Assembly: GCF_026410305.1 (NCBI RefSeq)
Contig: NZ_JAPMLQ010000002.1
Coordinates: 868,001-932,000, forward strand
DNA: 64,000 nucleotides
Direction of reading: 5' to 3'
Source: Sulfitobacter sp. F26204
Lineage (GTDB): Bacteria; Pseudomonadota; Alphaproteobacteria; Rhodobacterales; Rhodobacteraceae
A model generated the notes under the pieces. That model was given only the letters and a program-made list of their open reading frames with translations. It was not told the origin of the DNA and did no database searches. Below are positions 14,060-16,963 of the stretch, piece by piece (the stretch's first letter is position 1; each line of letters opens with the position of its first letter). The position numbers and the translations under genes were made by a program.

Positions 14060-14842
14060 CTAGAAATCCAGTTCGATCCAGACTGGTACATGGTCCGAAG
14101 GTTTTTCCAAGGCCCGAATCTCTTTGTCGATCTGACAGTCGCGCAGCCAATCTGCCACGGCTGGACTAAGCAGGAAATGGTCGATGCGGATGCCGTTGTT
14201 GCGATTCCAGGCACCAGCCTGATAGTCCCAGAAACTATAGTGTCCTGGCCCCTGTGTGCGGGCGCGGAATGCATCGGTCAGACCGAGGTTCACCAATTTG
14301 CGCCAGGCAGCGCGTGATTGCGGGCGAAACAGCGCATCCTCACGCCAACTGTCGGGCTTTGCTGCATCTTCAGCCTGGGGAATGATGTTATAGTCGCCTG
14401 CCATCAAGAATGGAGTTTCGGCCTTCAAGAGTGTCTTGGCCCGATCCTGCAGGCGTTCCATCCAGGCCAGCTTGTAGTCGTATTTCGGACCAGGAGCTGG
14501 GTTGCCGTTGGGCAGGTACAGCCCGCAGATCCGCAGGGCATCCCTTTCGCCGATCACGGTGGCCTCGATCCAGCGCGCCTGCACGTCGCTGTCATCACCC
14601 GGCAGACCTCTTGTGACATCTTCGAGGGGATATTTGGACAGGATCGCAACACCGTTGAATGATTTCTGACCATGGGTGTGCACGTTATAGCCGCGCTCTT
14701 CGAAGATGTCGGACGGAAATGTCTCATCAACCGATTTTATTTCCTGCAACAGGACCACATCCGGTTGGGCAGAGTCCAGCCAGGCGGGCAGGGCGTCAAT
14801 GCGGGCTTTGATCCCGTTGATGTTGAAGGTTGCGATCTTCAT
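14060..14842 (-). CDS. xthA: Exodeoxyribonuclease III (AP endonuclease)
   Basis: 260 residues of the exonuclease III fold. Motifs visible: MKIATFNINGIKARI at the start, QPDVVLLQEIKS with the metal-binding Glu, the GDYNIIPQ motif, and the C-terminal IRIDHFLLS and KPSDHVPVW, which hold the catalytic Asp-His pair. It repairs abasic sites and 3' blocks in DNA. The first ATG in frame is at 14857, but the family N-terminus begins at 14842. It converges with the LysR gene. Confidence 0.95.
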   Translation of the reverse strand: MKIATFNINGIKARIDALPAWLDSAQPDVVLLQEIKSVDETFPSDIFEERGYNVHTHGQKSFNGVAILSKYPLEDVTRGLPGDDSDVQARWIEATVIGERDALRICGLYLPNGNPAPGPKYDYKLAWMERLQDRAKTLLKAETPFLMAGDYNIIPQAEDAAKPDSWREDALFRPQSRAAWRKLVNLGLTDAFRARTQGPGHYSFWDYQAGAWNRNNGIRIDHFLLSPAVADWLRDCQIDKEIRALEKPSDHVPVWIELDF

Positions 14843-15181
14843 CTTCGTCTCCGCCAAATCCCGTTACGCGTCAGATCCCGCTAGTAGCCCGCTTCACCTT
14901 AGGGTGATTCTCATCGGGCTAAATCAACTTTTGGTTGCACATGTCCACCAGTTTGTAGGGAAACAGTCGCGGTCACTTACTGTGTGTAACTCTTTTGTTT
15001 ACTGTGGAAAACCCTCATTTATCGTCCAGGGTCGCGCTACTGTGGCCGGAGGTCAATGTGTGTGATCTTGTGGACAAAAGAAAGTCGAAAAAATTCCATT
15101 TGGCAGAACGATTTTGACGGGCAACGCTGAGTTTGCTGCAACTTATGATTGCGGTTTTTCACATCCAAAAGGAGTATAACC
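14843..15181. other. 339-base intergenic region between xthA and the repeat-peptide gene
   Basis: No coding sequence is supported here. A hairpin is visible: TAGCCCG at 14885-14891 pairs with CGGGCTA at 14915-14921, with CACC and GGTG pairing inside the loop. The right half (about 14990-15180) is AT-rich and must hold the promoter of the gene at 15182. I could not find a -35/-10 pair with correct spacing. An AAGGAG ribosome site sits just before 15182. Confidence 0.5.
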
Positions 15182-15466
15182 ATGACAGCACTTGCACGTT
15201 CTTCCGTATTTGCCGCCTCACGAACAGCCGATGCCCATAGCATTGACTCTGGTGCAGGGGTGGAGATGTTCAGTTCCGGATCGCTCGCTTCTACTGCTGA
15301 TATGATGGCGGGGGACGGTCTTGAGATGTTCACCTGCAGCGTCCTGGGCGCAGGGGCTGACGTGATGGACGGTGACAAGGTGGAAATGTTCACTTGTAGC
15401 GTACTTAACATGCGATCCGCAGTTATGGATGGTGACCAGACAGGGCTGTATACCTGCAGCGTCTGA
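15182..15466 (+). CDS. 94-residue tandem-repeat protein with TCSV motifs, possible peptide precursor
   Basis: A strong AAGGAG ribosome site fixes the start. After about 25 residues the protein is built of 20-residue repeats at 26-45, 46-65, 66-85 and a final part unit 86-94. Aligned motifs are VEMFSSGSL, LEMFTCSVL, VEMFTCSVL and GLYTCSV, each full unit ending in an acidic M-x-G-D linker (MAGD, MDGD, MDGD). Cysteines fall at 52, 72 and 92; the first unit has Ser32 there. No signal peptide or membrane segment. I believe this matches a small Rhodobacterales family of unknown function (perhaps DUF6749), unverified. Repeated Cys/Ser/Thr cores and acidic spacers resemble multi-core RiPP precursors, but no known maturase is adjacent, so this is a hypothesis. 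Confidence 0.85.
   Translation: MTALARSSVFAASRTADAHSIDSGAGVEMFSSGSLASTADMMAGDGLEMFTCSVLGAGADVMDGDKVEMFTCSVLNMRSAVMDGDQTGLYTCSV
15256..15466 (+). repeat. Coding tandem repeat, 60-base period
   Basis: The 3' three quarters of the gene consists of 60-base units at about 15257-15316, 15317-15376 and 15377-15436, with a half unit to the stop. Protein repeats are better conserved than the DNA: the two TTCAC(C/T)TG(C/T)AGCGT segments differ mostly at third positions. That suggests selection on the peptide and not a recent DNA duplication. Confidence 0.8.
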
Positions 15467-15539
15467 TCATCTTGTCACGTTCCAACGGGTCCAGTGAATT
15501 GATGCTGGACCTGTTCAATCCCCCGAAATCAGGCTTGCC

Positions 15540-16637
15540 ATGACCAATATCATTACCTTCCCGCCCGTTGACTGCCTGCCAGTCGGGCACGGATGTCGGG
15601 ATATGAACCTGCAGATACTCGTAAATGCTGTGGCAACAGAGCGGCGCCTACCTGACGACGTCTTCTGGCTCAAGGAAAACGCGGAACTGCTGGGCGTACT
15701 GGCGTCCACCCAAGCGCATCGCGCACCGCTTGATCTGACCCCCTATGCCGAGTTTTACGAGCGGATCGACCAACAGCTCCGGTTCTTTCCGCAATATTAC
15801 CGGTTTTATCTTTCGCTTTGTCTGGACCTGGAAGATCTCGGCTTTGACGGCAACAAGGGGGAGGCCTTGTGTCATTGGGTTGCCCGAAAAGAACTGGCTC
15901 AAGCGGAACTGTCAGATTTGCAGCGCGGCGAAGCCTGTCGATTGCTGGCACGACGTGGCGCAGGTGATGTCCTGACGCGAACCAAGGTGGCACAGCGGCT
16001 GCGCAGCTTTTCCGAACGGGTGGAAACCTTTGCCTTGCCTAACAAAAAAGCGGCCTATGAACTGACCCATATCGTGTTCTACCTGTCAGATTACGGCAAG
16101 ACCGACCCGGCGCTGAGCGCGGCGACCTTGACCAGCCTTGAATTTGCCGGGGTTCTGGCCTTTCTGGACCAAAATCATGATTTGCTTGCCGAAGTCTGTA
16201 TTGCGCTGACATTTGCCGGGACCACTCCCAACAGGGCATGGATCCGCACGATTGAAAAGACCCATGGGCAAATCCTGCCGACGGCGGGAAGGGCCGAGGA
16301 AACAAAGCAAGATGCCTATCATGCCTATTTGATGACAGGTTGGGCGCAGGCCGTGTCGGGAGAAACCGGTTTTGACGCACCGGTACCGAATGGTCCCTTG
16401 TATTTTCGTGCAACATCCAGGCCCGTCAGCGCGCTGCGGCCATTGTCAGAATGTCTGTATGAGTTGGGCGCACGACGCAGCGGCGATTGGGCATCCATGC
16501 GTGGTCGTATCATGCCGCTGCTTGCACGACAAAGTCGTGACATATTGCAGGCTACAGAGGCGTCGACTGGTAAGTTTGATGTGTTTTTCGAAGCTTTTGC
16601 ACGGGCTGGCAATCGCTGGGCGGTCGGGGCGGGCTAA
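15540..16637 (+). CDS. 365-residue helical protein of unknown function, partner of the repeat peptide
   Basis: Starts 73 bases after the repeat-protein gene on the same strand, probably co-transcribed. No signal peptide or membrane helix; the sequence is almost all predicted helix. A noticeable motif is YELTHIVFYLSDYG at 173-186, with other conserved-looking blocks at FFPQYYRFYLSLCLDLEDLGF (about 82-102) and AYHAYLMTGWAQAV. I recall a Rhodobacterales family like this (possibly DUF6902) but cannot confirm. No enzyme motif that I know is present. Candidate roles are a modification or transport helper for the repeat peptide, or an unrelated neighbour. It converges with erpA, stop codons two bases apart. 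Confidence 0.8.
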   Translation: MTNIITFPPVDCLPVGHGCRDMNLQILVNAVATERRLPDDVFWLKENAELLGVLASTQAHRAPLDLTPYAEFYERIDQQLRFFPQYYRFYLSLCLDLEDLGFDGNKGEALCHWVARKELAQAELSDLQRGEACRLLARRGAGDVLTRTKVAQRLRSFSERVETFALPNKKAAYELTHIVFYLSDYGKTDPALSAATLTSLEFAGVLAFLDQNHDLLAEVCIALTFAGTTPNRAWIRTIEKTHGQILPTAGRAEETKQDAYHAYLMTGWAQAVSGETGFDAPVPNGPLYFRATSRPVSALRPLSECLYELGARRSGDWASMRGRIMPLLARQSRDILQATEASTGKFDVFFEAFARAGNRWAVGAG

Positions 16638-16639
16638 TG

Positions 16640-16963
16640 CTACATCGAAAATGAAGTACCACAGCCACAAGCCGAAGTCGCATTTGGATTTTCAATGACA
16701 AAACGGGCACCGATCAATTCTTCCGAAAAATCAATCACGGCATTTGCGAGGAAAGGCAGGGAGATACTGTCAACCACAACTTTCTGGCCTGATCCTTCCA
16801 GCACCAGATCATCCGCTTTGGGGTCGTCCAGTTCAATTTCGTATTGAAATCCCGAACATCCACCACCTTCCACTGCGACACGCAGGGCTTTGCCCTGTTC
16901 GGACGCGCCGATCTCTGCAAGACGTTCGAAAGCACGTGGTGTCACTTTGGGCGGCAGGTTCAT
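16640..16963 (-). CDS. erpA: A-type iron-sulfur cluster carrier (ErpA/IscA family)
   Basis: 107 residues, the standard size. The three cluster-binding cysteines are visible: GGGCSGFQYE (Cys36) and the C-terminal ACGCGTSF pair. The family line IDSISLPFLANAVIDF is present as VVDSISLPFLANAVIDF. It carries or inserts Fe-S clusters into target proteins. Distinguishing ErpA from IscA is uncertain from sequence alone; it stands alone and not in an isc/suf operon, which favours ErpA. Divergent from dgt by 75 bases. Confidence 0.9.
   Translation of the reverse strand: MNLPPKVTPRAFERLAEIGASEQGKALRVAVEGGGCSGFQYEIELDDPKADDLVLEGSGQKVVVDSISLPFLANAVIDFSEELIGARFVIENPNATSACGCGTSFSM

Follow-up and report, generated by a model that had tools for sequence, protein, structure and literature searches.

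A tandem-core array gene paired with DUF6902 in Rhodobacteraceae, a candidate two-gene RiPP system

Multi-core RiPP precursors are familiar from, for example, graspetides such as plesiocin, dikaritins and orbitides. Roseobacters, in which we describe a candidate of this kind, are abundant marine bacteria. RiPP clusters with DUF692, P450 and S9 peptidase genes have been reported from Sulfitobacter, in passages from which DUF6902 is absent (PMC11278168). The DUF6895 family includes a lasso-peptide epimerase (Shi et al., ACS Catal. 2026, 16, 1757; cited in PMC13352647), a function that is taken here from the title of that one paper, and MslH, the epimerase of the lasso peptide MS-271, is described as a calcineurin-like protein with Ca(II) and His/Asp pairs (PMC10406935).

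The locus analysed here lies in a 64,000-nucleotide stretch of Sulfitobacter sp. F26204 DNA (hereafter the window, to which all coordinates refer) and consists of a short gene of tandem repeats followed by a gene of the DUF6902 family.

The repeat gene and its surroundings

The repeat gene, P0002 (positions 15182–15466, forward strand), encodes 94 amino acids, and its translation contains four units with a period of 20 residues. When the protein is compared with itself at an offset of 20, 31 of 74 positions are identical, whereas the best of 20,000 residue shuffles reached only 20 across all offsets between 5 and 47, which shows that the 20-residue repeat on which the original prediction was built is real. 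The repeat test and the comparison with its family lead us to describe P0002 as a multi-core precursor-like gene. A Shine-Dalgarno-like AAAAGGAG (15167–15174, forward strand) was identified by eye upstream of its start, and alignments with relatives delimit a leader-like N-terminus of residues 1–23 (MTALA..., 15182–15250, forward strand).

As defined by translation and self-comparison, the units are G24–S34 with the core SSGS (15251–15283), followed by G44–V54 (15311–15343), G64–V74 (15371–15403) and G84–V94 (15431–15463), each with the core TCSV and all on the forward strand. The anchor residues are F30, F50, F70 and Y90. The cysteines at 52, 72 and 92 and the serine at 32 are positioned as predicted, and the core of unit 4 does form the extreme C-terminus as a bare TCSV. 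The proposed unit sequence V/L-E-M-F-T-C-S-V-L describes units 2 and 3 but neither unit 1, with its SSGS core, nor unit 4, which reads TGLYTCSV. Of the proposed acidic linker, a short M-[AD]-G-D element stands, but the remainder of the linker is variable across the family. The codons of EMFTCSV in units 2 and 3 differ by four synonymous and no non-synonymous changes, which, together with the family-wide pN/pS of 0.11 for F plus core, bears out the suggestion that third-base changes reflect selection on the peptide.

Within the window's genome, the core-region pattern occurs in this ORF only (two matches), and a search with P0002 at E≤1e-3 returned P0002 itself and nothing else. P0002 matched no Pfam or NCBIfam family at E≤1, three of its relatives gave nothing over the cut-off in Pfam, and a close-relative search of viral contigs with P0002 found no relative.

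Two conserved flanking genes, both on the reverse strand and both placed outside the proposed mechanism, are an exonuclease III-like gene (14060–14857, Exo_endo_phos) and an IscA/ErpA-like gene (16640–16963, Fe-S_biosyn). An N-terminal motif of the former (xthA) was found at 125 of 129 loci, a C-terminal motif of the latter (erpA) at 96 of 130 and a dgt motif at 113 of 130, and this conserved setting argues for a settled, inherited function. The seven neighbours scanned comprise a glyoxalase, a LysR regulator, the exonuclease III-like and iron-sulphur assembly genes, an HD-domain (dgt-like) gene, argS and a gene for a SPOR protein. None of the seven is a protease gene, an exporter gene or another gene of RiPP biosynthesis, so that leader removal and export are left unaccounted for in a two-gene RiPP reading.

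A stem scan of the gap between P0002 and the DUF6902 gene found a hairpin of 13 pairs, with G-T allowed and with no T run (15484–15515, forward strand). Among the 130 of 134 loci that were scanned in this way, 38 have an unusually long gap stem (p≤0.02, 50 shuffles each), and we therefore do not claim the gap hairpin as general. Such stems might set expression of the precursor above that of the enzyme. At many of the listed Sulfitobacter loci, the same gap holds hairpins of differing sequence. A consensus promoter and terminator scan of the locus yielded neither, nor any terminator-like site, and Rfam had no match at 14800–16900.

Distribution and unit architecture of the array family

A search with P0002 of 198 genomes from the same family (Rhodobacteraceae) gave matches at E≤1e-3 in 29, with matches of E 0.001–1 left uncounted. 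DUF6902 is present in 55 of the 198, which include all 29 array-positive genomes. The first locus set (n=55) was made up of 54 of these 55 DUF6902 loci, a gene fragment at a contig end in G139 being left out, and of genome G219. At 54 of its 55 loci, all but that of G039, DUF6902 is preceded by a repeat-core ORF on the same strand; some of these arrays are cut by the contig end and that of G190 is broken by Ns. In a collection of named genomes, 356 stretches encode a DUF6902 relative (the genes may be fewer), and the best 80 of the 356 all have an array upstream of DUF6902, one of them cut by the contig end. These 80 are titled Sulfitobacter, Roseovarius, Ruegeria, Phaeobacter, Tateyamaria, Shimia and others, with some bins titled only Rhodobacteraceae, Paracoccaceae, Rhodobacterales or Alphaproteobacteria; the nearest named relatives of the window locus are Sulfitobacter.

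When both sets are pooled, 134 of 135 loci have an array that precedes DUF6902 in the same orientation. The gap between the two genes has a median of 63 bases and a range of 36–342 (75 of the 80 named loci). Since the locus sets overlap in species, the 134 arrays were reduced to 127 unique ones on the basis of their last 80 residues. They constitute a family without a name, in Rhodobacteraceae, with 2–20 units per array. The check put forward with the original prediction, namely that homologues should vary in repeat number and accompany the family of the gene at 15540, thus came out in its favour. Common as it is among the sampled genomes and named stretches, no description of DUF6902 was found in the open-access literature searched. 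A search on the broader topic gave nothing on the array and DUF6902 pair among the matches listed, and, when core strings and both Pfam accessions were searched for, only one string was matched, in three papers that are unrelated by their titles.

The units of the 127 unique arrays follow the formula G-[D/E]-x-x-x-x-F-core tetrapeptide-linker, and 18 named arrays were aligned with that of the window. At least two units are recognised in 126 arrays, with a maximum of 20, and G190 gives none; 23 of the 127 have only two or three recognised units. The spacing between units is 20 or 21 residues in 577 of 650 cases and falls outside 19–21 in 46. An acidic residue, D or E, frequently follows the G (647 of 776 units), and F precedes the core in 733 of 776, at a position where the search pattern itself requires F, Y, M, V or L. 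We counted 53 core tetrapeptides, the rarest of which are probably spurious and the commonest of which are SSGS, TSGS, TSSL, TSWS and TTSC. Ser, Thr and Cys predominate at core positions 1 and 2, and some cores begin with V, I, P, A or M; Gly occupies position 3 in 404 of 776 units, and no counted tetrapeptide has Gly at position 2 or 4. The array ends exactly on a core in 99 of the 126 arrays with recognised units. The expectation of a conserved TCSV core was borne out insofar as the core is uniform within an array, but TCSV is one of the 53 tetrapeptides, and Cys is therefore not family-defining.

Mean pairwise core identity is 0.88 inside arrays versus 0.07 across arrays. Between adjacent units (650 pairs, 126 arrays), pN/pS is 0.113 for F plus core versus 0.551 for the linker, the latter being taken only at equal spacing. 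The F and the core tetrapeptide are under purifying selection. Cores also switch in concert: G108 and L136 have enzymes that are 94.8% identical, and their cores are TSGS in 7 of 7 units and SSGS in 6 of 6 units, respectively. If the product is a peptide made in many copies, its core is expected to be uniform, specific to the lineage and maintained by purifying selection, as these cores are.

Several arrays depart from the simple pattern. At L162 (2579–2968), L096, L165, L193 and L197, extra copies of the core stand about eight residues apart between full units (for example TALFTSGS and VQMFTSGL), and copies at this spacing of eight were excluded from the unit counts. The arrays of L148, L159 and L173 mix two cores, with STSC flanked by SSGS or with TSGS and TTSA together; in such arrays, one precursor may give two products.

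DUF6902, DUF6895 and their upstream ORFs

The DUF6902 gene, P0001 (15540–16637, forward strand, 365 amino acids), starts 73 bp downstream of P0002, and we propose its product as the core-modifying enzyme on the basis of its domain matches and conserved residues. P0001 matches PF21843 (DUF6902) with an E value of 3.3e-134 (447.7 bits, cut-off 27) and also PF21836 (DUF6895) with an E value of 7.1e-19 (68.7 bits, cut-off 23.8); no further Pfam domain was found in it at E≤1. The statement that no known maturase is adjacent was thus mistaken, as the gene at 15540 belongs to a family that is related to one with a reported epimerase. P0001 found no match among plasmids.

Seven residues of P0001 (Y173, H177, G186, D214, E218, Y260 and H261) are identical in all 14 DUF6895-type proteins aligned. 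Of these, H177, D214, E218, Y260 and H261 each occur in 51 of the 52 DUF6902 sequences aligned, three with missing or shifted starts having been excluded. Most residues that are conserved in DUF6902 are absent from DUF6895. As judged from both cut-offs and the shared residues, P0001 belongs to a superfamily that unites DUF6902 and DUF6895. The sequence that breaks the pattern is in each case the divergent DUF6902 of G039, which has no array at its locus and lacks six of the seven shared residues. The array profile found no match in the G039 genome, although the same profile misses the two most divergent known arrays. Since the G039 protein is only about 25% identical to P0001, the missing residues may mark another subfamily and not a loss that followed the disappearance of a substrate.

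An AlphaFold2 (AF2) model of DUF6902, computed from an alignment covering 62 of the 80 named loci, is confident (pLDDT 92.4) and all-alpha, and structure comparison describes it as helical and toroid-like, a match that may reflect only a common helical arrangement. Foldseek found nothing for the model at E≤0.001, and the best PDB match of a DUF6902 sequence profile had an E value of 0.49. Structural (VIA) matches were set aside as a guide to function.

Small ORFs also stand before DUF6895 genes elsewhere. In Proteobacteria, they were found at L201 (two peptides) and at L202 and L204 (one peptide of two units each). Nine upstream peptides or parts of peptides can be aligned by an 'SGI'-type segment, in an alignment in which one Gly and one Trp are invariant; this leader-like segment and the Trp are seen at L201 (754–1347), L202, L204, L213, L214, L216 and L218, and the peptide ends are GPWYVY-like or YVLAWDKYVLVV-like. 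By their sequences, these ORFs look like a second, wider precursor family, with a leader and core that differ from those of the arrays. Among eight plasmid DUF6895 records, a small ORF lies directly upstream in Kitasatospora, two Streptomyces and Pseudalkalibacillus, and a 62-residue ORF lies one gene away from DUF6895 on the S. fungicidicus plasmid; Cupriavidus and S. chartreusis stand outside the precursor count. The Sinorhizobium plasmid has no clear precursor upstream of its DUF6895 gene: when nine ORFs upstream of DUF6895 were compared with Pfam, the only match over the cut-off was PUD1_2, in Sinorhizobium, and that ORF is unlike a precursor in appearance. At the six annotated plasmid loci, the genes annotated beside DUF6895 include none of the lasso type, and the published lasso link was therefore not reproduced.

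Other arrangements were observed near such genes. At L034 (G200, Proteobacteria), a small ORF with the end DDSEPAGSAGSAGSVG precedes a DUF6902 relative that scores below the threshold, and nearby ORFs were likened by eye to a TauD-type dioxygenase and an aldo-keto reductase. On two Streptomyces plasmids (L215, 1833–5688, and L217), paired tandem DUF6895-type genes follow an uncharacterised gene; at L215, a 62-residue ORF and a cytochrome P450 gene lie upstream of the pair and a serine hydrolase-domain gene lies downstream.

A candidate two-gene peptide system

Considering (i) the leader-like N-terminus, (ii) the tandem cores under purifying selection, and (iii) the variable unit number and the nearly invariant pairing with DUF6902, the array is well supported as a multi-core peptide precursor, short of its chemistry. 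It would probably be modified by DUF6902, for which a putative role as modifying enzyme is suggested by its adjacency to the precursor and by its relation to DUF6895. In the mechanism that we propose, one gene would encode the leader and the tandem units, and the all-helical, toroid-like DUF6902 protein would act on each core by means of its His/Asp/Glu/Tyr/His set, so that one polypeptide would give many copies of a single product. By analogy to the DUF6895 epimerase, the likeliest reaction would be L-to-D epimerisation of one residue per core, and, provided that DUF6902 acts on the array, we consider this reaction more likely than not. Epimerisation at the same position of every core would exclude position 3 because of its frequent Gly, which leaves positions 1, 2 or 4. 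The chances that the product is released as short peptides are about even. Taken as a whole, a RiPP multi-core precursor with cores modified by DUF6902, most likely via epimerisation, is the interpretation that we favour on balance.

The same precursor and enzyme might instead perform other chemistry, such as modification of the core Ser, Thr or Cys side chains or cleavage. The predominance of these residues at core positions 1 and 2 is consistent with this idea, as is a toroid-like helical model that is compatible with several enzyme types; however, the sole activity found named for DUF6895 relatives, in one title, is epimerisation, no additional Pfam domain was found in DUF6902 at E≤1, and cores that start with V, I, P, A or M occur, which together make other chemistry the less likely option in our view. 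We find it more doubtful still that the array carries no modification and serves as a row of short linear motifs on which DUF6902 docks, as a binding or regulatory protein with no chemistry at the core. Such a multivalent ligand would account for the strict pairing, the near-constant F and the lack of a processing gene among the seven neighbours scanned, but a docking motif should hold as long as its partner is constant, whereas all cores of G108 and L136 have switched between nearly identical enzymes; furthermore, the His/Asp/Glu/His set is common to a family in which, by title, an epimerase is reported.

A repeat scaffold had been named as an alternative in the original prediction. A small beta-solenoid, folded and used intact with DUF6902 as its chaperone or partner, would agree with the predominant spacing of 20 or 21 residues and with the AF2 model of an 11-unit relative, which has about one strand per unit at mid-confidence (pLDDT 66.9, pTM 0.63). 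AF2 is, however, reported to give confident yet unrealistic beta-solenoids for repeat proteins (PMC11795689), and because of this tendency, the arrays of two or three units and the irregular spacings, the scaffold is ranked lower and is very improbable; the faster evolution of the linker compared to that of the core also speaks against it.

If the array and DUF6902 do form a RiPP system, it would be among the simplest conceivable, with one precursor, one enzyme and no recognised cofactor domain. A core that is uniform per genome and different per lineage suggests that each lineage makes a product of its own, so that recognition or competition could be tested directly as its role, and the wider arrangement of a small ORF before DUF6895, seen in several phyla, might serve as a route to D-residue peptides. 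More tentatively, and with somewhat less confidence than in the core proposal, we suggest that DUF6902 and DUF6895 may together be a single superfamily of peptide epimerases, all-alpha and toroid-like, whose active site would be the His/Asp/Glu/Tyr/His set; in Proteobacteria, Actinomycetota and Bacillota, each enzyme would be paired with a short ribosomal precursor of its own. The roseobacter branch of the superfamily would be chromosomal and inherited and would place a D-residue about every 20 residues, giving either many copies of a peptide that contains a D-residue and is specific to the lineage or an intact polymer studded with D-residues; its role would be in signalling or cell physiology and not that of a mobile antibiotic cluster.

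The array resembles known multi-core RiPP precursors in its repeated cores and spacers behind a single leader; it differs from them in its DUF6902 partner, and none of their modifying or protease genes is among the seven neighbours. We rejected its identity as a lasso peptide: the lasso B-type leader peptidase (Transglut_core3, PF13471), which was found in 2 of 14 control genomes, has no match in the window's genome, and no lasso cyclase (Asn-synthetase-like) is among the seven neighbours. With drimenol synthase (9m7f), a class II terpene cyclase of the alpha/alpha-toroid kind, DUF6902 has 10% identity, and a structural likeness between the two may reflect only a common helical arrangement. 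MslH acts on the C-terminal residue of its precursor, akin to the ending of most DUF6902-linked arrays on a core; it is calcineurin-like with Ca(II) (PMC10406935), and its fold is therefore not that of the all-alpha DUF6902 model. Unlike many antibiotic clusters, the array–DUF6902 locus sits between housekeeping-type genes. The closest likeness is to the DUF6895 family with its title-reported lasso-peptide epimerase, whose PF21836 cut-off P0001 passes and with which it has seven residues in common, although DUF6902 is a separate Pfam family that is paired with tandem short cores.
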